The translations under genes and the position numbers were made by a program. From Anaerolinea sp. (lineage in GTDB: Bacteria; Chloroflexota; Anaerolineae; Anaerolineales; Anaerolineaceae), in the NCBI GenBank assembly GCA_020725865.1, contig DYEC01000012.1, positions 124,001-188,000 on the forward strand: 64,000 nucleotides of DNA. Direction: 5' to 3'. Shown in pieces: positions 10,047 to 36,510 of the stretch (within the stretch, counting starts at the first letter, position 1; each line of letters opens with the position of its first letter). The notes beneath the pieces are model-generated. The model worked only from the letters and a program-made list of their open reading frames with translations. It had not been told where the DNA came from and did not search any database.

Positions 10047-12539
10047 GGCGATAGATGTGTCCGTAGCTGTAAGATACCAGCAAGCATTGTAAGCTGCTTC
10101 CTGCAGGATACCCGTTTCCAAAGAAACGGTTTCATATAAAGCGAGCATAGTATCCTTTGAGGGAACCTTTTTCAGATATTCCATTGCCGCCAGTTTTTCT
10201 TCGGGAGTCCCCTCCTTTAGAGCCGTTAACAGTACTTCAGTTGCTGGTTGGCTGACAGAAAGCCCAATACCCAATTTGCTTGCGAATGCAATTAACCAAG
10301 GGGATTCATGGGGGGGCGGTAGCAGGATAAATGCTTTAGCTGGTGGTTGTTGTAGTTTTTCCAGTGCTCTTATAGCAGCGTTGCGGACTACCCATTGACC
10401 ATCTTCTACAGAAATTTTTTCCAGTAAAGGTGGTACCCACTCATCTCTAATCAGGGATAGACCGTAGACGGCCGCCCACCGTGTCATTAAGTCTTCTGAT
10501 TTGACCGCTTCTTTTAGATATTCGTGTCCTTCTGGAGGTGTTGCAGCCAGCGTTTCTGCTGCTATCTGCCTCAGACTTTCTTCGCCACTCATCAATGCAG
10601 TAACAATTGCCTGTTGTGTGGAGGGTGTTCCAATGGCGCTCAAGGCAAGACATGCTGCATTGCGTACGCCCTCTGAAGAATCGGCCATTAGGCTGGATAA
10701 TTCTGGTACAGCTTTTCCATCCTGCAGTGCACCACAACCCAAGACTGCCAGTTGGCGTACGGTTGCAGAGTTTGAACGCAATAATTGTCGCATAAGTGTG
10801 GCAACCAGCGGATCATTGGAATTAATCATTCCTGCCAGCATACGGGATTTTGCAAGCAGCGGGAGTCTCTCATCATGCAATAATTCCACCAGGCGACGCA
10901 TGATCGCGGTTTTCCATTCATACTCTCCGGAGACATCCTTGACTGCTCTCACACAAAGGATGAAATTTTTGTGCAAGGGGAAATCTTGTTGGGTAACCGT
11001 TTTTTTTGCCCATTGGGTTGCCTGCCCCCGACTGACCATAAACTGTGCGGCAAGTATCTTCGCACTCCAGAATTGATGGTGCAGGATATTTTCATCTTCG
11101 TTCTCGGCTGCGCAGCCTGCCAGATACCCTATGATCAGTGGGTGGCCAAAGCGAATCTCTTCTTCTGCGTGTTCGGTGAATATTCCTAACTCCAGAAGTG
11201 AATTAATTGCCCGACCACTGGAAGATACTTTGACGGGTTGCTTTTTGCTCACCTCTTGTGTTCTGTTGGCAATTTCTTCTTCAGGATGTTGTTGTGCTTG
11301 TATGTCTGGAGTGTATTTTGCAAAAAACTTTTCTATTTCATCATAACGATAACTGATACGCTGGTTGTAACACATATTCAGAGCCAGTTTTTCAAGTGCC
11401 TGCCTGGGAAGCAATGATCCAGTAAACCGTTGCAAATAAACGTCAAGAGCCTCATGCAACTTTATTTCTGTGATATCCCCAGCGTAAATTGCCCATAAGA
11501 GTAAAGTCCACTCCAGAGGAGTGTAGTAACGGTTTTCACCGAGCAACCAATTTGTTATTAGATGCGGGTTGAGTGGTTCCAGAGAATATTTTCTCTCGAT
11601 TTCTGGCGCGAGGTGAGTATTCCATTGCTTCCCCCACTGAGAGAAATATTGACGACACTCTTCTCGATTCCAGGCGGCGACACCCACAAAATGTATTGGA
11701 AGAACGCCCAGCCCATCTATGTCATGTGGTGAGATTGTTGTGATGAACCTGATGGCAGGATACCTTTCAAGTAATAGCTTGAGAAACAAAGCGGCTTCCT
11801 TAAGGCTCGCAGGTGGTAGTTCATCCAACCCATCCAGCAAGAATAAGACTCTACCTTCTGATACGGCATTTTGAAGGAAGCGGGAAAATCTTGATTGTAT
11901 GGTGAGGGGCAGGAAACCTTTATATGCTTCACTAATTAAAGCCAAGGGATCATCAGCTTCCTGCGCTTTTTCGTAATTGATATCAAGGATGTGTAGAAAA
12001 ATAGGCACAAATGAAGCAATTGTTTCAGTTTCGGGATTACTTTTAGCTATCAAGGTAGCGATATATGCCAGAGTTACTGTTTTACCACTGCCTGCGTTCC
12101 CTATTAGGGCTATGTTTGCCTTGCTTTCAATAAGATGTTGCGGAGAGATTGTGCTAGTGCTGTATTGAGCGCTGAGCTCTGGGCAATCTGGGAAATAAGG
12201 TATGGTTTGGTCAATCAGGCTGTTTGGTTTGCTGTCTTGATCTGGATCAAATGGGATGGGTGGTGGAATGAGCCTTGGCGGGACAAGGATTTCCTCGAGA
12301 GAGAACAAAGAATGTGCGAGGTGTTGGTACTGAGAACGGCGCAGGGTCTCCTGACGAATAGCAATTTCTACGCTGGAAAGACTTTTTTTCTGCGCAGCTT
12401 CTTTTCTCTGACGAAAGTATTCTTGAAATACGGGAAAATACCCTTTTAATCTTGAGATGAACCACCAGAATAGAGAGGCTGTGAGAAAGCCAAGCCAGAA
12501 AGAAATTTGATCCACCTGAATATTGGGAAAGCCGGGCAT
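10035..12539 (-). CDS. Membrane-anchored NACHT-type STAND NTPase with HEAT repeats
   Basis: An 834-residue protein. An N-terminal transmembrane helix (about residues 9-30) is followed by a charged, probably cytoplasmic helix. A P-loop NTPase of NACHT/STAND type follows, with Walker A GNAGSGKTVT near residue 150 and Walker B RVLFLLDGLDELPP near residue 236. The C-terminal third (about residues 560-834) is a run of HEAT/PBS-lyase-like repeats (for example AVLGCGALQDGKAVPELSSL and ACLALSAIGTPSTQQAIVTA). Such proteins act as ligand-triggered switches; bacterial NACHT proteins include antiphage sensors and regulators. No nuclease, TIR or protease effector domain is visible. ATG 12539 lies 2 nt after the upstream zinc-ribbon gene and has AGGAT upstream. 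An in-frame start 37 codons earlier would lie within that gene. Confidence 0.85.
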   Translation of the reverse strand: MPGFPNIQVDQISFWLGFLTASLFWWFISRLKGYFPVFQEYFRQRKEAAQKKSLSSVEIAIRQETLRRSQYQHLAHSLFSLEEILVPPRLIPPPIPFDPDQDSKPNSLIDQTIPYFPDCPELSAQYSTSTISPQHLIESKANIALIGNAGSGKTVTLAYIATLIAKSNPETETIASFVPIFLHILDINYEKAQEADDPLALISEAYKGFLPLTIQSRFSRFLQNAVSEGRVLFLLDGLDELPPASLKEAALFLKLLLERYPAIRFITTISPHDIDGLGVLPIHFVGVAAWNREECRQYFSQWGKQWNTHLAPEIERKYSLEPLNPHLITNWLLGENRYYTPLEWTLLLWAIYAGDITEIKLHEALDVYLQRFTGSLLPRQALEKLALNMCYNQRISYRYDEIEKFFAKYTPDIQAQQHPEEEIANRTQEVSKKQPVKVSSSGRAINSLLELGIFTEHAEEEIRFGHPLIIGYLAGCAAENEDENILHHQFWSAKILAAQFMVSRGQATQWAKKTVTQQDFPLHKNFILCVRAVKDVSGEYEWKTAIMRRLVELLHDERLPLLAKSRMLAGMINSNDPLVATLMRQLLRSNSATVRQLAVLGCGALQDGKAVPELSSLMADSSEGVRNAACLALSAIGTPSTQQAIVTALMSGEESLRQIAAETLAATPPEGHEYLKEAVKSEDLMTRWAAVYGLSLIRDEWVPPLLEKISVEDGQWVVRNAAIRALEKLQQPPAKAFILLPPPHESPWLIAFASKLGIGLSVSQPATEVLLTALKEGTPEEKLAAMEYLKKVPSKDTMLALYETVSLETGILQEAAYNACWYLTATDTSIALAP

Positions 12540-12541
12540 GG

Positions 12542-13243
12542 TTATCCTGCAAAAAGTACTCTGCCACACGAGGAACAAAACACAATTGTTGATGATGCGC
12601 GAATGTTTTGCAATTCGGCGGGTCGGATGGTGGCGCCACAGGCTTTGCAAGCATTATCCTCAACTTTGGTGACAGCAACGCCGCGTTTCCGTTGCCTGAG
12701 TTGCTCATACGTTGCTAAATTATCTGCAGAAATTGAACCAAGGATTGCTTTCCTTTTCTCGCTTAGACTTTTGATCCTGGACAATAAACGGTTTTTTTCT
12801 TCCAAGAGTTTAGATTGGACTTGGTTATGATCTAGTTGTGCTTGTGAGAAATCCTGCTGCGCTACGGTAAGCATTTGTTCAGCCTGCTCTAATGTTAACA
12901 TTGCCTCAAGTTGTTCGTCTTCCAATGTAGATAATCTGCGTTTCAGGGATGCAATTTCGGATTGCAAATCCTGAAGCTCTTTGGGGTTGCGAATTTTTCC
13001 ACTATAGAGAGAAGATTCACTGGTTTCGATTTTCAAGCGGATGCTTTGGACATTGCTTTCAATTTGTTTCAATGCCTGCTGGGCAAGCAGCAGACTCTGT
13101 TTTGCTTCTCTTAAACGCGCTTCGTATTGACGCAAATGCTCATCGTTTATCAATCGCTTGTTAATCTCCTCAATTTGCAGGTTGATTTGATCATTTTCTG
13201 TATCAATCTGTTGCAATTGGAAGAGGTGAAGAGATTGATTCAT
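12542..13243 (-). CDS. Coiled-coil zinc-ribbon protein (CT398-like, C4 type)
   Basis: A 233-residue protein whose first ~180 residues form a long antiparallel coiled coil rich in Q, E, L and K. It ends in a C4 zinc ribbon, CKACGATIRPAE then CSSCGRVLF (about residues 203-231). This architecture is shared with Chlamydia CT398 and H. pylori HP0958/FlgZ, which bind sigma-54 or RNA, but the exact role here is unknown. It is the first gene of a two-gene unit with the NACHT/HEAT gene, separated by 2 nt. A good promoter ends 7 nt before the ATG, so the transcript is probably leaderless. Confidence 0.88.
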   Translation of the reverse strand: MNQSLHLFQLQQIDTENDQINLQIEEINKRLINDEHLRQYEARLREAKQSLLLAQQALKQIESNVQSIRLKIETSESSLYSGKIRNPKELQDLQSEIASLKRRLSTLEDEQLEAMLTLEQAEQMLTVAQQDFSQAQLDHNQVQSKLLEEKNRLLSRIKSLSEKRKAILGSISADNLATYEQLRQRKRGVAVTKVEDNACKACGATIRPAELQNIRASSTIVFCSSCGRVLFAG

Positions 13244-13250
13244 AGTAGTT

Positions 13251-13279
13251 ATTATAGAGTCACTGAAAAGTTATGACAA
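13251..13279 (-). promoter_or_regulatory. Sigma-70 promoter of the zinc-ribbon/NACHT unit
   Basis: On the minus strand TTGTCA (13279-13274), a 17-nt spacer and TATAAT (13256-13251). The -10 box ends 7 nt before ATG 13243, so the expected start site is at or beside the start codon. This is the best-formed promoter of the leaderless type in the window. Confidence 0.7.
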
Positions 13280-13376
13280 GTTTTGTCGGGCAACGATTTC
13301 AGCCCTTTGACAGCAAACTGTTTTGTTGGGTTCACTGTGCTACATTTTTTGTGTTGTTAACCGCCGCATGTTTGTA

Positions 13377-14525
13377 TTATATCGGAATATCCCAAGGGGC
13401 GGTTCCAATATTTTCCGCCCTTTGTAATGAATGTTGGATAGGTTCACATAATTCTGGCATCACGTCTGCAACAGCTGCAAGCAATCCAAAGCATCCAGCG
13501 ATCATCATGTCTCCAAAGGGTACAGCGAAGTAAGGTTTGAGGCTTGAGCCGCGAAGCAGGTTGCGTCGAGGTCCGGTAACCACAACATTGTAATCAGGAT
13601 GATTGAGTACAAGTGGTTCTTGGTTGTAAATTAACGCCCCATGACCATGATGCCCAAAGACTTGCTCGTGGGTAAGCGTACCATCAGCTAGGGCTTGAAT
13701 CAGGTTTTCTAGATCTGATGCAGTCAGTAGCCCGGTATGATGTTCAAATACGCCCTCGATGCCGTTTCTACTAAGGCGAAAGGCGAGGGTGTGAAAATTG
13801 CCTATATTGACGATGAGCTGGCGTGGGCGAGCGGCAACAACTGGATCAAACATTGCTCCGAGTATGGCAGCTGGAGCAGTGTCCATCACAACCAGGGGAA
13901 CTGGTAGATGACCAGCAGAGTCAACCACTGCCTGAAGACGTGTCATAATGGTGGGAATCTGATCGCTGCGGTAAGCAAAAGCGCTTAAGCGGTTTTCAGC
14001 CCTTATACGTGCATCTAGATAATCAAAACGGAATTGTCGGTCAGAGACGTTCACTGGGGCATTACCGTGATCAAATACTGCCACAGCGATAGCCGCCAAG
14101 TCTTTTAGAGAAACCCCAAAACGCTCAAAGGTGCTCCTAATGGCTTCAAAATCAAAATCGCGCAATTCAAGGCGGGTAATGGATGGAGGTAAAGCTTGTG
14201 CTTCATCTTCGCTAACCAGTTTTATGCCCATTGCAGCAACTGCTTCCAGGTCATCATTGAAAGAACGCGCAGCTTGCAGGGTGGCGTAAATGGGCAATCC
14301 TGCTTTGGCGTGATCCTCAGCAGCCCAAGCACTTGGGCCACCACCCATGATGAATCCAGTTAGTAGAACCGCTTCACCTTTTTGTGTCGCCTGCCGTAGT
14401 CGGTGATTGACCATCATGGTTGGAGAGGGCAGGATCATCTTAAATCCATTTTCGATATCCAAACGAGAGTCGTAAAGGTATATATCTTGAGTACCGGTTC
14501 CAACATCAACGGTTAAGATTTTCAT
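13377..14525 (-). CDS. DUF1786 protein (ASKHA-like, annotated as PFL-activating-like)
   Basis: A 382-residue protein whose N-terminus MKILTVDVGTGTQDIYLYD matches the phosphate-1 loop of the actin/hexokinase (ASKHA) fold. Further motifs are LLTGFIMGGGPSAW, AIAVFDHGNAP and IVNIGNFHTLAFRLSRNGIEG. It matches the DUF1786 family, often annotated 'pyruvate formate-lyase activating-like', though there is no radical-SAM cysteine motif and no PFL gene nearby. True function unknown. It stands alone between the convergent-oriented zinc-ribbon unit and the divergent mutase gene. Confidence 0.75.
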   Translation of the reverse strand: MKILTVDVGTGTQDIYLYDSRLDIENGFKMILPSPTMMVNHRLRQATQKGEAVLLTGFIMGGGPSAWAAEDHAKAGLPIYATLQAARSFNDDLEAVAAMGIKLVSEDEAQALPPSITRLELRDFDFEAIRSTFERFGVSLKDLAAIAVAVFDHGNAPVNVSDRQFRFDYLDARIRAENRLSAFAYRSDQIPTIMTRLQAVVDSAGHLPVPLVVMDTAPAAILGAMFDPVVAARPRQLIVNIGNFHTLAFRLSRNGIEGVFEHHTGLLTASDLENLIQALADGTLTHEQVFGHHGHGALIYNQEPLVLNHPDYNVVVTGPRRNLLRGSSLKPYFAVPFGDMMIAGCFGLLAAVADVMPELCEPIQHSLQRAENIGTAPWDIPI

Positions 14526-14636
14526 AGCTAGGCTGCTCTTTTGTGGATTACAAGGCTAAAGTTTACCATAAACGGACTTAATTTCCACTGGTTTCGAGTA
14601 TACTCTTAATAGCCTTTGAGATGCTAGAGGTGCATA

Positions 14637-16286
14637 ATGACACTTGAAAAAGAATATAAACGCTGGGAAGAAGAGCTCTTAAAACCAGTTGTTGATCGTT
14701 TCCCAGAGCGGAAGGTGAAGTTTGAGACTTCTTCTGGCATACCCGTACCACGTGTGGCTTTACCATACGCGATAGATTATATGGAAAAACTTGGATTTCC
14801 TGGGGACTATCCGTTTACACGTGGTATTCAGCCGACTATGTATCGTGGACGATTCTGGACAATGCGTCAGTATGCTGGCTATGCAACTGCAGAGGAGTCC
14901 AACCGGCGTTATCGTTACTTGCTAGAGCAGGGACAAACGGGCTTGTCAGTTGCCTTTGATTTGCCAACACAAGTTGGATATGACGCAGATGACCCAATTG
15001 CTTCTGGGGAAGTGGGCAAAGTGGGGGTTTCGATCTGCTCCCTGCGTGATATGGAAATTCTGTTCCACGAGATTCCACTGGATAGGGTTTCAACAAGCAT
15101 GACCATTAATGCCCCGGCGGCGATTCTGTTGGCGATGTACATTGCGGTGGCACGGCGGCAGGGGATAGAGGAGAAAAAACTTCGCGGCACAATCCAAAAT
15201 GATATTTTGAAGGAGTATGTTGCGCGCGGAACTTACATTTTCCCGCCTAAGCCCTCAATGCGTCTGATCACCGATGTATTTAAGTATTGCAAGCAGATGG
15301 TTCCGAATTGGAATACGATCAGTATTTCCGGATATCACATCCGAGAGGCGGGTTCAACCGCTGTGCAGGAAGTGGCCTTCACATTGGCAAACGCTATTGC
15401 CTATGTGGAAGCTGCTCTTGAGGTGGGTTTGAAAGTGGATGAGTTTGCGCCGCAACTTTCTTTCTTTTTCAATGCTCATAATCAGTTTTTGGAAGAAATT
15501 GCCAAGTATCGCGCGGCAAGGCGTTTGTGGGCGCAAATCATGAAAGAAAGGTTTGGCGCTAAAAATCCCCAATCCATGATGTTGCGTTTTCATACGCAAA
15601 CAGCAGGCTCAACATTAACAGCGCAACAGCCAGAGAATAATATTGTGCGCGTGACCATTCAAGCGCTTGCAGCAGTACTGGGAGGTACGCAATCGCTTCA
15701 TACAAACAGCATGGATGAAGCTTTGTGGTTACCCACCGAGAAATCTGTACGGGTAGCGTTGCGAACACAGCAGATTATCGCAAATGAATCGGGGGTCGCA
15801 GATACAATTGATCCTCTAGCTGGCTCTTATTTGATTGAATACTTGACTGATGAAATTGCACAGCGAGCGATGACATATATTCAAAAAATCGATGAAATGG
15901 GGGGAGCTTTGGCTGCAATTGAAAGTGGTTATATGCAAAATGAGATTCAGGAAGCAGCCTATCGTTATCAACGGGAAGTGGAAAGAAAAGCGCAGATTGT
16001 TGTCGGGGTAAATGCGTTTCAGATAGATGAAACACCGGAATTGGAACAATTGGCGGTGGATCCTTCCATTGAGGAGAGTCAAAAAAAGCGACTGTCAAAC
16101 GTTCGCGCTGAGCGCGATCATAATCGCGTCAGTGAGCTATTGAGTTACTTGGAGACGGCGGCGCGAGGTGAAGAGAATCTGATGCCCATCTTTATCGAGT
16201 GTGTTGAAAATATGGTTACTCTTGGAGAGATTTGTCATGTGCTGCGACAGGTATGGGGAGAATATCAACCTCCTGCCTGGATATGA
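14637..16286 (+). CDS. mcmA: Methylmalonyl-CoA mutase, large (catalytic) subunit
   Basis: A 549-residue adenosylcobalamin-dependent mutase chain that interconverts methylmalonyl-CoA and succinyl-CoA. It has the TIM-barrel catalytic domain but no C-terminal B12-binding DxHxxG domain, so it needs a separate small subunit. That subunit is not in this window. Visible motifs include [59 protein letters not shown] and [12 protein letters not shown]. The Tyr in TMY and the Arg in PSMR fit methylmalonyl- rather than isobutyryl-CoA specificity, judged by eye. The epimerase gene follows 23 nt later. Confidence 0.9.
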
Positions 16287-16309
16287 TGGCGTAAGGATTT
16301 GGAGGAGAA

Positions 16310-16717
16310 ATGGCAAGAATTAAAAAGATTAACCACGTTGCAATTGCTGTCACAGACATTGAACAGGCACTTGTATTCTGGCGTGATGCACTGGGATTGG
16401 ATCTTCATCACGTGGAGGACGTTCCCAGTCAGAAGTCTATGGTGGCTTTCATGCCCGTCGGCGAAAGCGAGGTGGAATTGGTTAAACCCACAGCCGAAGA
16501 TACGGGAGTGGCAAAATTTATTGCTGAACGGGGTGGTGGAATCCACCACCTTTGTTTTGAGGTTGATAATATTGAAGAGATGATCACAGCTTTGAAAGCC
16601 AAAGGTATACGCCTTATCAATGAGTATCCTCTCGAGCTGCCGGGTCGCAAGATGGCTTTTATTCACCCTAAGAGTACTGGCGGCGTGTTGGTAGAGTTAT
16701 ACGAGGTCATCGCTTGA
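16310..16717 (+). CDS. mce: Methylmalonyl-CoA epimerase
   Basis: A 135-residue vicinal-oxygen-chelate protein that interconverts (2R)- and (2S)-methylmalonyl-CoA. Two beta-alpha-beta-beta-beta modules carry the metal ligands: KINHVAIAVTDIEQAL (His about 8), GGGIHHLCFEVDNIEE (His about 82) and a Glu in VLVELYEV near the C-terminus. A Shine-Dalgarno GGAGGAG precedes the ATG. Linked to the mutase large subunit, it forms a propionyl-CoA/succinyl-CoA interconversion unit. Confidence 0.95.
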   Translation: MARIKKINHVAIAVTDIEQALVFWRDALGLDLHHVEDVPSQKSMVAFMPVGESEVELVKPTAEDTGVAKFIAERGGGIHHLCFEVDNIEEMITALKAKGIRLINEYPLELPGRKMAFIHPKSTGGVLVELYEVIA

Positions 16718-16816
16718 GGTTTTTGTTATGAGGATGAAACAATGGCGATGGATAGAGGCGGTTGTCCCTTATCCGTCGCTATTAATCGTCTCGTGATCAT
16801 AACGCGCGGGTGAAAC

Positions 16817-16845
16817 TGGACAATCCATGTGCTTTCAGGTATGAT
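16817..16845 (+). promoter_or_regulatory. Sigma-70 promoter of the atpAGDC operon
   Basis: TGGACA (16817-16822), a 17-nt spacer and TATGAT (16840-16845), about 48 nt before the atpA start. It lies in the 176-nt gap after the epimerase gene. The gap holds no other ORF that I can support, and this promoter would let atpAGDC be expressed apart from any Fo genes. Confidence 0.6.
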
Positions 16846-16893
16846 TCAGCCGTTATGGACATAGGAAGTTTTATTGGGCGGGCTGGAGGTTAA

Positions 16894-18567
16894 ATGACAG
16901 AGCCGATTCTCAAACAAATTACCGAAGAGCTGCAACAAAAGATTGAATCGTACACCCCACGATACGAAATTCAGGACGTTGGGGTGGTACTTGAGGCTGG
17001 TGATGGTATTGCGCGTGTGAGTGGTTTACAAGGCGTTCGCTCACAGGAACTGGTGTCTTTTGAAAACGGTGTAATGGGAATTGCCTTCAATCTGGAAAAA
17101 GACCGCGTCGGTGTGATTGTGCTGGGTGATTATTCGGGGATTACTGAGGGGATGATGGTGCGAACGACCGGTCGTATTGCTTCGGTTCCGGTTGGAGATG
17201 CCTTGCTTGGTCGCGTCGTGGATGCACTTGGTCGCCCGGTGGATGGAAAGGGGCCGATAGCAGCTAAGTCTTATCGTCCGATTGAGCGAATTGCGCCGGG
17301 CGTTGTTTCCAGACAGGATGTTGACACCCCTGTCCAGACTGGTATCAAAGCGATTGACTCGATGATCCCAATTGGGAGAGGACAGCGCGAACTGATCATT
17401 GGTGATCGTCAGACTGGAAAGACGGCTATTGCGATTGATACGATTATTAATCAAAAGGGTAAAGATTTATATTGTATTTATGTGGCAATTGGACAAAAAA
17501 AAGCGGCAGTGGCACGCACGGTAGCACTGCTTGAACGTTATGGAGCGATGGATCACACAATCGTTGTTGTGGCTTCTGCGGATGAGTCGGCAGCCATGCA
17601 ATATATTGCACCTTATGCGGGGTGTGCAATTGGTGAAGAGTTTATGGAAACCGGACGAGATGCGCTGGTGATTTATGACGATCTATCCAAACACGCTTGG
17701 GCATATCGTCAGGTTTCGTTGCTCTTACGGCGTCCTCCAGGCCGTGAGGCTTATCCAGGTGATGTGTTTTACCTGCACTCTCGTTTGCTGGAACGCGCTG
17801 CCCGGTTAGCTAATCAATATGTAATTGTCCATAAGAATTTTAAGGGCTCGGTGGCTACTGCAACAGATAGTGTTAATGGCGAGATCTATAGTGGGCCTCG
17901 CTCGCTTCATGATGCGGTGATTGCACTCAAGTCTATGCCGAATCCAGAGGATTACAAGATTGTAAAGTTGGCTGGCAGCGGGGGGTCTTTGACTGCCCTG
18001 CCAATTATTGAGACGTTGCTGGGTGATGTATCAGCCTATATCCCAACCAATGTCATCTCGATTACAGATGGACAGATTTATCTGGAAAGCAGCCTTTTTA
18101 ATGCTGGTATCCGCCCGGCGATTAACGTGGGTATTTCGGTTTCCCGTGTGGGTGGTGCGGCACAAACGAAAGCGATGAAACAGGTGGCGGCTCGTTTGCG
18201 TCTGGATATGGCTGCTTTTCGCGAGTTAGCAGCTTTTGCCCAGTTTGGTTCTGACCTTGACAAAGCTACGCAGGCGCAATTGAATCGCGGACAACGATTG
18301 CAGGAGATTCTAAAACAACCTCAATATGCACCGATGTCGCTTGAAAATCAGGTAATCATTTTGTTTGCTGGAACAAATGGCTATGCAGACCAGATACCGT
18401 TGGACAAAATGGCGCAGTGGGAGGCTGATTTATTGCGTACGATTGAGACCAGTTACCCGGAGATTGGAAAGGATATTGCTGCACGCAGGCAAATCACTGA
18501 TGAGACTGCCGAGGTATTGAGAAAGGCGATCGAGGCATTCAATACAGCCTGGTTGACAGCAGAGTAG
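16894..18567 (+). CDS. atpA: F1-ATPase subunit alpha
   Basis: The 557-residue non-catalytic nucleotide-binding subunit of F1. It has Walker [12 protein letters not shown] (about residue 170), [16 protein letters not shown], and the arginine-finger region VSRVGGAAQ (about residue 413). Between [10 protein letters not shown] and [12 protein letters not shown] is an insertion of about 40 residues compared with the E. coli protein, a feature I associate with Chloroflexi alpha subunits. A Shine-Dalgarno CTGGAGG precedes the ATG. It is the first gene of an F1-only operon: no atpB, E, F or H lies upstream. Confidence 0.97.
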
Positions 18568-18583
18568 TGAAGAGAGAAGTGCG

Positions 18584-20910
<2,327 letters not shown>

Positions 20911-30638: not shown

Positions 30639-31781
30639 ATGAAAAAGTTGGCTTTTTTCGGGCAACGGATTTTTGTGTTTACCGGTTTTATTTTTTTGTT
30701 AATTCTGGCTTGCAATGTTCCAGGAATTGGGGGCGCAGTTTCAAGACTGGATAACGCTGAACAGACAGCTCAAGCCTTGGAAACTTCTATTGAACAGACA
30801 CAGGCAGCTATGCTTAACAGTCCTATAGTTCAGACCGTTCAGATAGGCACATCAACCCCCCAGCCTGTAACACCACCATCACCGGAAGAAACAACAAATT
30901 TTCCTGATACAACAGCAACCCCGACAATTGAACACAAGATTGTGCCGGGCGAACCCGGAAAAGTGAAAGCAGAAATTAAGGATGCAAATACAGCGCCTTC
31001 TGGTAGCTCAAAACACGCCATGGAAGGGGATATTTACCAGCAGAATTTGTTTGAGCGTCCGTTTGATGCGGATATGTTATATCGTCCAGATTTGGATATA
31101 CAAAAGGCAGAACTTGCGGAAGACGATAATTTTTTCTATGTAACAATCTATCTGGCAGATGTTTATCCGGATAGCAAAACCTTACAAGCAAATTATGGGA
31201 TTGAGTTAGACACTGATTTTGATGGTCGCGGTGATTATCTGATTTTGATTACCCCTCCATTTGAAGCACAGTGGACAACGAGCAATGCATCTGCTTTTGG
31301 CGACTCGAATAATGATGTTGGTCGTAAGCAGGCGTTAATAATGGATATTCCATCCAGTGGGGATGGCTATGATGTGGTTATTTTTACAATTCAAAACAAT
31401 CGTGACCCTGATCTAGTGTGGGGGCGAAAAGCACCAGATAAACCCTCTGTAGTTCAGGTTGCCTTCAAGAAATCTATGCTGGATCATCCTTCCTCGTTCT
31501 TGTTTGGTGTCTGGGCAGACGATGGTCCAAAGGATGTCCGAATGTTTGACTACAATGATAATTTTAGTGAAGCTGATGCCGGATCGCCACTGGAGAAAAA
31601 TCCAAATTACCCTCTTAAGGAATTGTTTGCTGTGGATAATACCTGTCGTATGAGCTTTGGGCGTGCCCTTTTGGTGACTGATCCAGGTATATGCGGCGAG
31701 CAGAAACCTCTAATTCCTACTTTGCGCGTACCCACTGCTCAGGTTACCCTGCCTTCCGGTTTTCCGGGAAGCGGAAATTAG
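30639..31781 (+). CDS. Lipoprotein, likely partner of the FHA-ABC transporter
   Basis: A 380-residue exported protein with a signal ending in the lipobox LILAC. A short coiled-coil segment follows (NAEQTAQALETSIEQTQAAM), then a Pro/Thr-rich stretch (STPQPVTPPSPEE). A larger all-beta-looking domain (about residues 130-360) includes an Asp-rich, calcium-loop-like YGIELDTDFDGRGDYLI. I recognise no family. ATG 30639 is preferred because GGGGAGGA lies 9 nt upstream; an in-frame TTG at 30621 is weaker. The next gene begins 24 nt later, so the two are probably one operon. A TATAAT lies at 30547-30552. Confidence 0.75.
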   Translation: MKKLAFFGQRIFVFTGFIFLLILACNVPGIGGAVSRLDNAEQTAQALETSIEQTQAAMLNSPIVQTVQIGTSTPQPVTPPSPEETTNFPDTTATPTIEHKIVPGEPGKVKAEIKDANTAPSGSSKHAMEGDIYQQNLFERPFDADMLYRPDLDIQKAELAEDDNFFYVTIYLADVYPDSKTLQANYGIELDTDFDGRGDYLILITPPFEAQWTTSNASAFGDSNNDVGRKQALIMDIPSSGDGYDVVIFTIQNNRDPDLVWGRKAPDKPSVVQVAFKKSMLDHPSSFLFGVWADDGPKDVRMFDYNDNFSEADAGSPLEKNPNYPLKELFAVDNTCRMSFGRALLVTDPGICGEQKPLIPTLRVPTAQVTLPSGFPGSGN

Positions 31782-31805
31782 AGTTCTCTCTTACAGGAGT
31801 ATGTT

Positions 31806-34800
31806 ATGAAAAGCTCTCCGACTGGAAATAAAAAATTTATATTACATTTGGCCGTTGGTGATGGTGAATGGGTAGAACGCTCGTTAGATGAGGGGGTCTA
31901 TATCCTGGGTCGAGCATCGGATTGCCAGATTATCCTGCCCGGAAACGAGGTTTCACGGCGTCATGCGCAAGTTGAAATTGCACAAGATGGCATGTGGATA
32001 ATGGATTTAGGGTCAGCAAATGGTACGCAGTTGGATGGAAATCCTCTCTCGCCGCGTCGACGTACTATTCTTCAGCCGCATCAGGTAGTTGCCATTTCCT
32101 GCTATCGTCTTAGAATTGAGCCGGCAAAAGGCGAAGAAGTACCAGTGCCAATTCCTTCCACCGAAGAGCAGCTCCAAACGATTGCTGCAGGACAGTTTGC
32201 TTTTAGTCATGAGTTTTCTGCATCAGCAGTCCGAACATTGGCAGAAGGTGGTGAACAAGCCGCTGTGGTTACAAGGCCGGGGGAAGTACAACCTCCGCCA
32301 CCGCCTCCTACTCCATTGGTTCCTGCGCGTCAGGTTGTATTACAGTATCGGCAGGGACAAGGTAACTGGATTTCATACACCTTGAACGAAGGTGACCAAT
32401 TTATCGGTCGTGAAGCTGGTAACCATATTGTATTGGATTCGACCAGTGTATCCCGCCGACACGCGCGGGTGACGTTAATCAGCGGGATGGTTTCGATCAC
32501 AGATTTGGGATCCAAAAACGGTGTCTATAAGAATGGGCAACGGCTGAATCCTCATCAATCTTACCCGCTTGAGCCGGGAGAGAATTTCCAGATTGATGAG
32601 TTCTTCTTTGAGTTGAAATCCTCCGGTATTCCGCAGAAGCAGCCAGCTCGAACACCTCCTGCCCCGCCACCGACACCGTTCCAAGCTCCATGTGGTGAAG
32701 TTTCCACAGTTGTTGCTCTTGATCTGGGCGAAGCTGCTGTGCCCATGCCCAGCGGCCGCTTAAACCTTTTAGGTCAAGATCGTGTTTCAATTGGTCGCGC
32801 TCCAGATAACCAGATTGTTCTTGATCATCCAATGGTTAGCCGCTATCATGCGGTTATTGAGAGGTTAGGTACCCGTTCACGTATTATCAATACCCACAGT
32901 GCCAACGGGGTTTTTGTTAATGGACAACAGGTCGAGCATATGACATGGCTTACGCCAGGTGACGCGATCAAAATTGGACCTTATCAGTTTCAATTTTCCG
33001 GCAATGAGTTGCAGCGTTCTGCTACTTTAGAGGGGTATGAAATTGATGTCATAGGCATCAACAAATGGGTATCAAAGACGGTCAATCTACTGAAAGACAT
33101 TAGCTTGCACATTGGGCAGAATGAGTTTGTGGCACTAGTGGGGATGAGCGGGGCGGGTAAGAGCACGCTTATGGATGCCATCAATGGATTTCGTCCCGGT
33201 ACGAGTGGACAGGTTTTGGTTAACGGTGTGGATTTATACCGCAATTATGAGTCTTTCCGGGATGATATTGGCAATGTGCCACAAAAAGATATTGTGCACA
33301 TGGAACTGACGCCGGAGCAGGCATTAGATTATGCAGCGAGATTACGAATGCCATCAGATACGACCGCTGCCGAGCGAAAAGCGGCAGTGAATGCAACTTT
33401 GAATGATTTAGGTTTGACTTTTAAGAAAGATGTCCCCATCTCGCGGCTTTCGGGCGGCCAATTAAAACGCGTCTCAATTGGTGTTGAACTGTTAACGAGA
33501 CCCAGGCTATTCTTTTTGGACGAGCCAACTAGTGGCTTAGACCCTGGTACCGAATACGAGATGATGAAGTTGTTGCGTCATCTCGCGGATCAGGGTCGCA
33601 CAATCATGCTAATTACACATGCCACCAAGAATGTCATGTTTTGTGATAAGACAATCATCCTCGCTCGCGGCGGGATTCTGGCTTTTTATGGTCCACCGGA
33701 AGAAGCTCTCGAATATTTTGATCAGTTCCGTACCCCGCGCGAACGGCTGGAAAAAGACATGGAATTTGATGATATTTATCGCATTCTCCAGGATGATTCG
33801 CGTGGAAAGCCGGAAGATTGGCGCGAACGTTATCTCACTAGCAAGTATGCAAAATATTGTCAGCCCAAATTTTCCCCTGTACAAGCCGCACAAAAGGCAG
33901 TACCGGCTGCCAAACGACGACATCGAATATCCGCATTGAAGCAATTTTTTGTCCTTTCCGCCCGGACAATGCGTTGCATGATTCAAGACCGCGCTTCTCT
34001 TGGGTTGACGTTAGCGTTGGCACCAGTGTTGGGTTTGATGAATTTTATTTGGGGGACCAAACTCTTTGATCCAGTTCAAGGCGACAGTACCAAAGCCCTT
34101 GGTTTGTGGTTTGTCACGGCGGTGATCGCCATATTGGTCGGGTCTATGGGGAGCGTGCGAGAGATTGTTAAGGAAAATGAAATTTACAAACGCGAACGAG
34201 CTGTAGGTTTACGAATATTGCCGTATATCCTATCCAAAGTTTGGATTGGAATGGCACTTTCAATCTATCAGGGGATTATCATTTTGTTCTTTGTGTTTAT
34301 CCTGGCACGTCCGGTGGTGAATAGTGCGCTTGCCTATCCTGCTATGATGATTACGATGATCCTGATGATTATTTGCGGTTACCTGATGGGATTGATGATC
34401 TCGGCAATTGCTCCTAACCAGAATGCAGCTCAATTGCTATTGATAGCTGCTTTTGTTCCCCAACTTTTATTTGCTGGGTTGCTGATGCCAATTCAGCGTA
34501 TTCCATTAGGTGAAATCATCAGCCCACTCATGTCAACACGTTGGGGATTTGAGGCGTTTGTCAATGCCAGCGGGATGGGTGATATGCTGGTCAAAGATCC
34601 CTGCTGGTCGCTTTCAAAAGAACATCGTATTAAGTTAAGTCCAACGCAGAAAGAAGCCTGCCTTTGCCTGGGCGCAAATATATTTAAGAACTGTGCAAAT
34701 TTTCCGGGTATTCTTTCACCAGATTTTTATGACGAGGATGCAAAAATAGCTTTGTCGCAAGGTGAACCACAGAAACCGCCTCAACCAACTCGTTACCCTT

Positions 34801-35468
34801 CACCTACGCCGCGTCATACGCCAACACAGTATCCAACGCCAACTTTGTTGCCTACTCCTACATTTCTCCCGACACCTAGTCCTTACCCCACACCCACGCG
34901 TTTGCCTATTCACCTGGGTGGCAGTCCAGAGAGACGGGCTACGGATTATGCAGGGTTGTCTCCAGAAGAAATTCAGACGCGCGCAGTTGGTGAAGCCGCG
35001 TGGCGTGCAGCGCAGTATCAGTCGGATACTGAAAAACAATTTGAAGAATATCGCCAGACGCGAGAAGCCCAATTCAGTGATTATCAGAATCAGACCATTG
35101 GTCAGATGGGGGAATACAAAGAGCAGGTTGAAGGGCAGTTTGATGAATATCAAGAGCAAGTTAAGGATCAAATTGAACAGCACATTGATCTGGAAGTTCA
35201 GTCAATGGAAGAATATGGCAATCAGGTCGAGGGACAATTTGAAGAATACCGGTTGGAAATGGAAAAATATGGTGAGAGACTCGAAGATTGGGAGCGCAAT
35301 CGCCAGGAAGCCATCGGTGCCGCAGAGACCATTCTGGGAATTGTTTTCGATAATTATGGTCGGATGTTCCATGGTTCGGTGCTGTCCCGCTGGATTTATA
35401 TCACCTTGATTTCGCTGGCACAGTTTATTGCCATTCTGGTTTTTCAGAAACGAAAGGATGTTATATAA
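31806..35468 (+). CDS. Triple-FHA ABCG-type ABC transporter with coiled-coil extracytoplasmic loop
   Basis: A 1220-residue single-chain transporter. Three forkhead-associated domains come first, each with the phosphothreonine-binding GR..S.RH core: GRASDCQIILP..SRRH near residue 35, GREAGNHIVLD..SRRH near 200, and GRAPDNQIVLD..SRYH near 330. The ABCG-like ATPase has Walker A GMSGAGKST (about 446), signature LSGGQLKRVSIG (about 547) and Walker B LFFLDEPTSGLD (about 567). About five transmembrane helices run from 728 to 915. The last extracytoplasmic loop is greatly enlarged: Cys-containing segment, Pro/Thr-rich linker (about 986-1036), then a coiled coil (about 1056-1175) with repeated GQFEEY-like units, before the final helix and tail. 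Substrate unknown. The FHA domains imply control by Thr phosphorylation. Confidence 0.9.
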   Translation: MKSSPTGNKKFILHLAVGDGEWVERSLDEGVYILGRASDCQIILPGNEVSRRHAQVEIAQDGMWIMDLGSANGTQLDGNPLSPRRRTILQPHQVVAISCYRLRIEPAKGEEVPVPIPSTEEQLQTIAAGQFAFSHEFSASAVRTLAEGGEQAAVVTRPGEVQPPPPPPTPLVPARQVVLQYRQGQGNWISYTLNEGDQFIGREAGNHIVLDSTSVSRRHARVTLISGMVSITDLGSKNGVYKNGQRLNPHQSYPLEPGENFQIDEFFFELKSSGIPQKQPARTPPAPPPTPFQAPCGEVSTVVALDLGEAAVPMPSGRLNLLGQDRVSIGRAPDNQIVLDHPMVSRYHAVIERLGTRSRIINTHSANGVFVNGQQVEHMTWLTPGDAIKIGPYQFQFSGNELQRSATLEGYEIDVIGINKWVSKTVNLLKDISLHIGQNEFVALVGMSGAGKSTLMDAINGFRPGTSGQVLVNGVDLYRNYESFRDDIGNVPQKDIVHMELTPEQALDYAARLRMPSDTTAAERKAAVNATLNDLGLTFKKDVPISRLSGGQLKRVSIGVELLTRPRLFFLDEPTSGLDPGTEYEMMKLLRHLADQGRTIMLITHATKNVMFCDKTIILARGGILAFYGPPEEALEYFDQFRTPRERLEKDMEFDDIYRILQDDSRGKPEDWRERYLTSKYAKYCQPKFSPVQAAQKAVPAAKRRHRISALKQFFVLSARTMRCMIQDRASLGLTLALAPVLGLMNFIWGTKLFDPVQGDSTKALGLWFVTAVIAILVGSMGSVREIVKENEIYKRERAVGLRILPYILSKVWIGMALSIYQGIIILFFVFILARPVVNSALAYPAMMITMILMIICGYLMGLMISAIAPNQNAAQLLLIAAFVPQLLFAGLLMPIQRIPLGEIISPLMSTRWGFEAFVNASGMGDMLVKDPCWSLSKEHRIKLSPTQKEACLCLGANIFKNCANFPGILSPDFYDEDAKIALSQGEPQKPPQPTRYPSPTPRHTPTQYPTPTLLPTPTFLPTPSPYPTPTRLPIHLGGSPERRATDYAGLSPEEIQTRAVGEAAWRAAQYQSDTEKQFEEYRQTREAQFSDYQNQTIGQMGEYKEQVEGQFDEYQEQVKDQIEQHIDLEVQSMEEYGNQVEGQFEEYRLEMEKYGERLEDWERNRQEAIGAAETILGIVFDNYGRMFHGSVLSRWIYITLISLAQFIAILVFQKRKDVI

Positions 35469-35528: not shown

Positions 35529-35571
35529 GGCAATTCAAGCATGTTGGATGTCAAAATGAATTGATTTGGAC

Positions 35572-35577
35572 TATAAT
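35572..35577 (+). promoter_or_regulatory. -10 element of the small unknown gene
   Basis: TATAAT located after the terminator and 63 nt before the TTG start at 35641. A weak -35 (TGTCAA) sits 17 nt upstream. It marks a separate transcription unit. Confidence 0.4.
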
Positions 35578-35640
35578 CTACCCCGTTTGCTTGATAGAAA
35601 ATATACGGGTAAGAACAGTCTTAATTCATGGGAGGTTCGT

Positions 35641-36054
35641 TTGAGTCGAATTTATGATCCCGATAACGCTGGTAAACAACGAGCTCGCCTATCCAAAGAG
35701 GTAGTTCTGGCATTACAGGAGCTAATGAGGCAAAGTTCTCCGGATGATATTAGCCGCGACCTAGCTGCTTTTGTTTCTATTGCATTGTTTCAAATTTACC
35801 AGACAGTAGAACAATCCGTTGTTGCTTGGGAGAAGCGCGGCTATTGGTTGAAAGCTGATCGCTTTCGGTTGGATTGGGAGTGGAGCACCTTGCTCGGGGA
35901 AAAGATGCGCGTTGCGATTTTGAACGATGATTGGCCAACAGTTGCTTCAACCGCAGTTCAAATTGGTCAAAGACTGATGAAAGTTAAGATCCCTGAGCAC
36001 CACCGACTGGGAAAACCCTGGGTGGGTGCCTGGAAACAATTGGCCAAGATGTGA
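35641..36054 (+). CDS. Conserved-looking 137-residue protein of unknown function
   Basis: A soluble, mostly helical protein of 137 residues with many Trp and Arg in the second half (WEKRGYWLKADRFRLDWEW, GKPWVGAWKQLAKM). I recognise no family. The TTG start at 35641 is chosen because GGGAGG lies 6 nt upstream; an in-frame TTG at 35566 lies within the promoter. It has its own promoter and sits between the terminator of the FHA-ABC operon and the convergent mscL gene. Confidence 0.65.
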   Translation: MSRIYDPDNAGKQRARLSKEVVLALQELMRQSSPDDISRDLAAFVSIALFQIYQTVEQSVVAWEKRGYWLKADRFRLDWEWSTLLGEKMRVAILNDDWPTVASTAVQIGQRLMKVKIPEHHRLGKPWVGAWKQLAKM

Positions 36055-36078: not shown

Positions 36079-36510
36079 TTACTGTAGTTCAGAAGTGCAA
36101 TGTGCACAGCGAGTGGCGTTGATTGGGATGGTGGAAAGGCAATAGGGACATTCCTTAGAATTTGGTTCAATGGGTACAGGTTCTTTCCTGAAGCGGTTTA
36201 TGGCGCGCACAACAAAGTAGAGCGCGAGAGCCACGAGCAGGAAATTGATCACCGTGTTGATGAAAAGCCCATAATTTATGGTGGGTGCGCCGGCAGCCTG
36301 AGCCTCTTTTAGAGATGCGTAGGTTGTCCCGGATAGACTGATAAACAGGTTGGAAAAGTCCACGTTGCCCAGGAGCAAACCAATGGGTGGCATTAAGATG
36401 TCATTGACCAGAGAGGAAACGATATTCCCAAAAGCGGCCCCGATCATTAGTCCAACAGCTAAATCAACAACATTCCCTTTTAACGCAAACTCTTTAAACT
36501 CTCGCAACAT
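36079..36510 (-). CDS. mscL: Large-conductance mechanosensitive channel with C-terminal zinc ribbon
   Basis: A 143-residue MscL. The N-terminal amphipathic helix and pore helix [34 protein letters not shown] are clear, and the second helix is near residues 70-100. Channel function is release of solutes under hypo-osmotic shock. Instead of the usual cytoplasmic helix bundle the C-terminus ends in a zinc ribbon, [18 protein letters not shown] (about residues 122-139). Shine-Dalgarno AGGAGG. Monocistronic, convergent with the small unknown gene. Confidence 0.95.

Follow-up and report, generated by a model that had tools for sequence, protein, structure and literature searches.

The 64-kb stretch of Anaerolinea sp. 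DNA that we analyzed (hereafter, the window) contains two co-directional ORFs separated by 24 bp. The upstream ORF (30639–31781, +), which has an ATG start, encodes a lipoprotein, LIPA, composed from N to C terminus of a signal peptide, the lipobox LILAC, a variable stem, a Thr/Pro linker, a conserved unclassified domain, and a Pro/Thr tail. The downstream ORF (31806–35468, +) encodes a 1220-aa transporter with an FHA-FHA-FHA-ABCG architecture. Both ORFs lie where the first-pass annotation had placed them, and its overall observation, including a lipoprotein gene preceding the transporter gene, is borne out. The transporter is the sole full-length match to its own sequence in the 3.1-Mb genome, and no further match to LIPA was found in that genome at E ≤ 0.001. 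Upstream of the lipoprotein gene lies a divergent gene of the beta-lactamase family, a homologue of which is found five genes away in one relative. On the other side, 3′ of the transporter gene, a small uncharacterized protein is encoded at 35566–36054 (+), followed by a 143-residue gene at 36079–36510; the two are kept together near the transporter in the relatives L071 and L072.

Pfam identifies three FHA stretches in the transporter (4.9e-54, whole protein) at 31899–32096, 32403–32594, and 32784–32978, followed by ABC_tran (33090–33533, residues 429–576), corresponding to the ATPase core, and ABC2_membrane (33942–34562, residues 713–919), which covers TM1–TM5 of an ABCG-type membrane domain, all on the forward strand. 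TM6 is encoded at 35379–35462 (+). The ATPase displays the full set of motifs (Walker A and B, signature, and H-switch), and GR, SRRH or SRYH, and NG motifs are found in each of the three FHA domains; we take these motifs to have their customary meaning. FHA domains with intact phosphothreonine-site motifs are thus fused to a transporter, as expected of an FHA-controlled ABC transporter of the Rv1747 type, and the N-terminal ATPase precedes an ABC2 membrane domain of six helices, as in ABCG proteins. We modeled residues 651–1220 with AF2 (29 sequences, mean pLDDT of 80.3, and pTM of 0.61), and a Foldseek search with the membrane-domain model returned 56 matches at E ≤ 0.001, the best being ABCG5/G8 (E 1.2e-05). 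Among the 50 of these 56 matches that were listed, ABCG appears in the title of 48, and the remaining two (6ffc and 5njg, both ABCG2 entries) are titled only "ABC transporter"; many of the alignments extend over ~220 columns at 2.1–3.5 Å. Pfam, motifs, and Foldseek therefore agree on what had been noticed at first sight, namely that three FHA domains, an ABCG-type ATPase, and a membrane domain are joined in one chain. A rough motif count in 95 proteins gave 0 to 5 FHA motifs, with three in 31 of them; because the motif pattern is crude, we regard three FHA domains as a family trait no further than the close relatives. In L074, two transporter copies stand in tandem (11001–14936 and 15029–19735, +) behind one LIPA gene, and this count gives them 4 and 5 FHA-like motifs.

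Hydropathy analysis printed six cores before the loop described below, and because the AF2 model shows a single helix at 804–834, we merged the overlapping pair at 808–826 and 824–842 into one. Both methods then yield five TM helices N-terminal of the loop and one C-terminal of it. Since the N-terminal ATPase is cytoplasmic, this count places the loop outside, in keeping with the extracytoplasmic location that the first-pass annotation presumed. In MacB and FtsX, the fold has four TM helices, and a large outer domain separates TM1 from TM2. The window protein departs from this type VII design, with six TM helices, an insert between TM5 and TM6, and an ABCG fold.

Between TM5 and TM6, the outer loop (34494–35375, +) is expanded to 294 residues (897–1190), in which four parts can be recognized. 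At its base (34602–34694, +) are four cysteines (Cys 933, 952, 954, and 963), the first three of which occupy invariant columns in both 25- and 29-row alignments and which are surrounded by short helices in the AF2 model. Next comes a Pro/Thr-rich strap (34767–34907, +, residues 988–1034), with a six-residue period over much of its length, which is modeled as coil (pLDDT per ten-residue block of 83, 52, 65, 68, and 64). It is followed by a single long helix (34962–35369, +, residues 1053–1188), which would measure about 20 nm if straight. In the model, this 136-residue helix is unbroken, with block mean pLDDT values of 74–93, and terminates three residues ahead of TM6. Finally, within the helix are seven 11-residue GQFEEY-type repeats (35034–35264, +, residues 1077–1153), in agreement with the repeated units pointed out earlier. 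These repeats are beyond chance, since the hydrophobic autocorrelation of the helix peaks at lag 11 and this peak was reached in 0 of 5000 shuffles. The original description of the loop as a Pro/Thr-rich stalk plus a coiled coil holds insofar as it is Pro-rich, helical, outside, and conserved, but the "stalk" is better read as a strap running along the helix.

We examined helix periodicity in 14 chosen proteins. The hydrophobic period of the window helix is 3.64, near 11/3, and with all hydrophobic residues considered it is 3.62–3.66 in five tested proteins of the close clade, against 3.52–3.58 in five sister or cyanobacterial proteins. For aromatic residues alone, we obtained p values of 0.152 in L070 and 0.06 in L074. 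In the 88 homologues that we could parse, the strap is 36% Pro, while Gln, Glu, and Ala abound in the helix, which has 7.1% Tyr and only 4.3% Leu. Extra loop cysteines are present in both limbs in L130, L131, L132, and L136, where disulfides could join the strap to the helix. A search of PDB sequences with the window arm returned 28 matches, and the streptococcal antigen I/II stalk A3VP1 (3IOX) was not among them.

How widespread is this loop? The membrane domain finds matches at E ≤ 1e-6 in 25 of 101 related genomes, at 33 places, of which 28 were read and 5 (E 1.7e-9 to 7.4e-7) were not. At 25 of the places read, the extracted loop, which takes in a few residues of TM6, is 211–307 residues long; at the other 3 it is 58–70. 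A search of named genomes gave 349 relatives, 80 of which were kept; Anaerolineae and Cyanobacteria account for most of these, a single record being titled Dehalococcoidia and another Methylotetracoccus, and those that are neither cut nor broken all bear a loop of 154–307 residues. When 301 genomes of the phylum were searched, a match was found in 60. We picked 20 homologues across the phylum, 18 of which are loopless, and the 2 with a loop both come from the window's order. The idea that homologues might consistently lack the loop is therefore contradicted among close relatives but holds for most of those sampled farther out. A tree based on 202 membrane-domain columns (eight cut, broken, or partial loci and the HlyD fusion L197 were omitted) separates 90 loop-bearing from 20 loopless proteins with no misplaced tip and a split support of 0.999. 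Within it, the close clade of the window has 7 tips (support 0.972) and its sister clade 27 (support 0.986). Judging by these sequence comparisons, the loop marks a clade found mainly in Anaerolineae and Cyanobacteria. L197 (1728–5639, +), a homologue of FHA-ABCG type that comes from a different Chloroflexota lineage and lacks the loop, continues at its C terminus as an HlyD-type adaptor (PF16576, E 1.5e-12 and PF13437, E 5.9e-10), so that exporter and adaptor are one chain. In the literature, we found no title or abstract start describing a family of FHA-ABCG proteins with a strap-helix loop.

We then compared the lengths of the two limbs. The parsing reported here is a third, alignment-anchored one, from which exact duplicates and 8 loci whose proteins are cut, broken, or incomplete had been excluded beforehand and in which 3 loopless proteins went unparsed, leaving 88 homologues. 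The first parsing (26 rows, Spearman 0.34, and Pearson −0.25) had bad anchors, and the second (86 rows, rho 0.81) failed for 13 proteins and visibly misparsed some others. As parsed, lengths range from a strap of about 10–22 residues with a helix of 30 in the shortest cases to 54 plus 131 in the window. Across these 88 non-independent sequences, and with a strap definition picked after two poorer ones, strap and helix lengths are correlated with a Spearman coefficient of 0.92 and a Pearson coefficient of 0.90, and regression of helix on strap length (OLS) gives a slope of 2.12 with an intercept of 1.4 and a median ratio of 2.23. Clustering at 60% identity (24 groups) gives a rho of 0.93 and a slope of 2.11, while the corresponding values are 0.98 and 2.95 at 50% (8 groups) and 0.90 and 2.84 at 45% (5 groups). 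With independent contrasts (n = 87), the sign is kept but the relation is weaker (r 0.47, slope only 0.75, and sign-flip p 0.027). We also varied the strap definition. Rho is 0.86–0.93 in 13 of 15 definitions, with a slope of 2.0–2.2 in eight and 1.82 in one, whereas four loose definitions give slopes of 1.0–1.1, yet median ratios of 2.1–2.2, and two strict ones give slopes of 0.75 and 1.42 with rho of 0.22 and 0.66.

Each strap residue is thus matched by about 2.1 residues of helix, with a slope that varies with the strap definition. A polyproline-II (PPII) strand rises by about 3.1 Å per residue and an alpha helix by 1.5 Å, a ratio of 2.07, which is near the observed value. This is most simply explained by a strap that runs the full length of the helix, base to tip, and may be packed against it in PPII form. 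A long helix accompanied by a Pro-rich strand of matching length is what an antigen I/II-like stalk would exhibit, and this is what we found, with a slope sensitive to settings.

Next, we turned to the lipoproteins. No Pfam or NCBIfam family was found for window LIPA, its 23 relatives gave only scattered single matches to these databases, and the PDB contains no sequence relative at E ≤ 1. An AF2 model built from 4 sequences (pLDDT 39.7) was too poor for a fold search. The conserved part of the protein is the later domain, about residues 100–350, while the N-terminal stem is short and poorly conserved. LIPA lies upstream of the transporter in the window, Ch132, Ch10, and Ch9 and is missing at the locus of a fourth relative, i.e., it is present in 4 of 5 close-clade genomes with a readable upstream side, the contig of another relative ending there. 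The survey of homologous loci proposed at the outset therefore found a lipoprotein neighbor that is frequent in the close clade but not constant. LIPA relatives were matched in 34 of 101 genomes, also away from transporters, and in several related genomes they form tandem arrays (L097–L100), with no Pfam family matching the whole. The "own coiled coil" ascribed to the lipoprotein proved to be the stem. Since this stem is variable and is also present in relatives that are not beside a transporter, and since a profile of the transporter loop misses LIPA (see below), we rejected docking via the stem of the window lipoprotein.

A second type of lipoprotein, LIPB, is often encoded 3′ of the transporter in the sister clade, as seen at 10 of the 15 sister loci among the 28 and at 11 of 13 named loci, two of the named LIPB loci being on the same contigs as earlier loci. 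In 4 of 8 LIPBs scanned with a threshold of 0.01 or 0.05, there is weak similarity to the ConA-like PF06439 (E 0.00047–0.0095, below the cut-off), and a ninth scanned at 1e-5 gave no PF06439 match. Among 19 distinct LIPBs, 14 have an insert of at least 60 residues, 4 have none, and 1 is N-masked; the insert combines a Pro-rich segment with what is probably a helix. A profile that we derived from 23 sister-clade transporter loops matches 13 of the 14 insert-bearing LIPBs (it misses L089), always within the insert and with E values down to 7e-14. Against 3493 ORFs, it produced 15 matches at E < 0.01, corresponding to these 13 LIPBs and two transporter loops, and it produced no match against five shuffled sets and a reversed set. 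With window LIPA the E value is 8.4, and the strap-helix element is therefore absent from it. By these comparisons, most sister-clade LIPBs carry a strap-helix element similar to that of the neighboring transporter, whether through common descent or convergence. Docking of two coiled coils outside the membrane, which the first-pass annotation envisaged for the window pair, accordingly finds a hint in the sister clade alone, through the LIPB insert. Thr/Pro-rich linkers occur in other lipoproteins of the homologous loci too.

Genes labeled as kinase-like by BLAST lie within four genes of the transporter at 32 of the 80 named loci, and a catalytic-loop motif is present at 29 of these 32 loci. 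The only one scanned with Pfam has a kinase domain and a Peripla_BP_6 domain. In the window genome, none of the 12 Pkinase matches lies inside the 64-kb window. The proposed kinase control, for which a linked Ser/Thr kinase had been sought, is therefore plausible in view of the homologous loci, but the window itself lends it no such neighbor. In L115, L120, L123, and L128, a gene of 148–184 residues lies 3′ of the transporter and precedes a kinase-like gene; in L123 the small protein has, by Pfam, a clear FHA domain and a weak zinc ribbon, and the other three look similar by eye. PKS/NRPS-like genes were found within six genes of the transporter at 8 of 28 loci, and Pfam confirmed all four that were scanned. 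Three of these have AMP-binding and ketosynthase domains, while the fourth, six genes from the transporter of a relative close to the window, has ketosynthase and acyltransferase domains. One further scanned neighbor is a phosphopantetheinyl transferase. The window genome has one match to PF16197 (KAsynt_C_assoc, ketosynthase-associated), on a different contig.

With moderate confidence, we propose that the protein is an ABCG exporter under kinase control, with an alpha/PPII arm that spans the envelope. The transporter would work as a homodimer, by analogy with ABCG-type exporters, and a kinase, presumably also in Anaerolinea sp., would phosphorylate threonines on itself, the transporter, or a partner. 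Binding of these phosphothreonines by the three cytoplasmic FHA domains may alter ATPase activity or clustering. Outside, the Pro/Thr strap would climb in PPII form along the single Tyr/Phe-rich helix above the cysteine-bearing base. Since the helix re-enters the membrane almost into TM6, the arm would be coupled to the transport cycle via TM6, shifting with it as ATP is cycled. Such an arm may guide the exported molecule, or hold a lipoprotein, across the cell wall, and cargo would exit between the two arms of the dimer, or along them, and so reach the surface or a lipoprotein. The order of these steps is one that we infer from Rv1747–PknF and ABCG transporters, and it is the parts themselves (domains, single long helix, topology, length relation, conservation, and sister lipoprotein insert) that sequence or model supports. 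Export is the most likely, still putative, function, and the neighboring genes suggest a PKS/NRPS product as cargo at some sister loci. Counting against this reading are the 4 insert-less sister LIPBs and the 18 loopless homologues elsewhere in the phylum, together with the modest strap pLDDT and pTM, a slope that changes with the strap definition and drops in the contrasts, the lack of a Pkinase match in the window, and the placement of the PF16197 match on another contig.

The first-pass annotation envisaged kinase-controlled export or mechanotransmission in place of classical transport. In mechanotransmission, as in FtsEX or MacB, the ATPase would move the arm on an outside lipoprotein or wall enzyme without pumping cargo, a notion to which the position of the helix just before TM6, the lipoproteins encoded next door, and the beta-lactamase-family gene all lend weight. 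The Foldseek matches, however, are to ABCG transporters rather than MacB/FtsX, the four large neighbors scanned, in clusters that are annotated in part, are all PKS/NRPS proteins, and in L197 the homologue is fused to an HlyD-type adaptor. The linked PKS/NRPS genes and the HlyD-type fusion favor export, and we consider mechanotransmission without transport unlikely.

The arm might instead take no part in transport and serve as a passive spacer or an adhesive stalk, its Pro/Thr stretch being a wall-crossing linker like those of other lipoproteins at these loci and its helix a dimerization element. While the highly variable loop length and the existence of loopless homologues are consistent with this, a mere spacer accounts poorly for a loop that is clade specific, with cysteines and anchors conserved at both ends, for the relation between strap and helix lengths, and for a similar element in a linked sister-clade lipoprotein, and we find it improbable. 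It would be more surprising still if the 11-residue repeats formed an apolipoprotein-like amphipathic helix that binds lipid cargo directly. The window arm does resemble apolipoproteins weakly (E 0.013 in Pfam, below the cut-off, and E 0.039 for apolipoprotein A-IV in the PDB), and PKS genes are found at some sister loci, but V-ATPase subunit G (E 0.19) and lamin (E 0.64) figure in the same list of PDB matches, and the five sister or cyanobacterial helices depart from a period of 11/3.

Returning to the kinase-controlled exporter, what is new here is the loop-defined clade, the length covariation, the LIPB insert, and the kinase-like genes near 32 of 80 loci. The family ties FHA-ABC transporters to a defined outer arm and often to kinases, strap-to-helix length offers a quantitative, testable rule, and the putative rod, ~20 nm long in the window protein and shared by relatives from two bacterial groups, may be an unrecognized route through the cell envelope. 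A bolder proposal, which we put forward only tentatively, is that the polyproline-strapped arm is a new transporter part, whose limbs would evolve in register and whose length would fit the envelope of each lineage, driven via TM6 by a kinase-gated ATPase and in some cases paired with a lipoprotein element to form a lipid or lipopeptide relay.

To our knowledge, FHA-ABC transporters are familiar mainly through a single mycobacterial case, with a cargo that is still unsettled. Rv1747 of Mycobacterium tuberculosis is about 865 aa long, and so without room for the loop. Like the window protein, it joins FHA domains to an ABC exporter, and it is reported to lie in an operon with the Ser/Thr kinase PknF, a positive modulator (PMC3908365), whereas no kinase is linked in the window; it has two FHA domains (PMC5549992), versus three in the window protein. 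Eukaryotic ABCG half-transporters (ABCG2, ABCG5/G8, and ABCG25) have a membrane-domain fold in common with the window protein, over Foldseek alignments of 216–349 of 570 columns, too few to include both the membrane domain and the whole arm. These half-transporters are not known to have FHA domains.

MmpS5–MmpL5 is a mycobacterial RND exporter, whereas the window protein is an ABCG-type ABC transporter. It is not known to have an ATPase, FHA domain, or Pro strap, and the present family could be an ABC counterpart to such mycobacterial coiled-coil exporters. In the streptococcal antigen I/II stalk A3VP1, a long alpha helix is intertwined with a PPII strand to form a fiber of 155 Å, as reported in two accounts (PMC3707005 and PMC7732690). 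Antigen I/II is a wall-anchored adhesin, whereas the window element is a transporter loop whose packing we infer; it is a candidate for a second natural alpha/PPII stalk. Export of PDIM involves DrrABC, MmpL7, and the lipoprotein LppX, so that an ABC transporter and a lipoprotein move a lipid, and DrrABC is a Type V ABC exporter of three subunits, with no FHA domain or outer arm named in the abstract (PMC11539658). The pairing of an ABC transporter with a lipoprotein in the PDIM system nevertheless resembles the gene content of the sister clade, where some loci also have natural-product genes and a lipoprotein whose insert resembles the arm.
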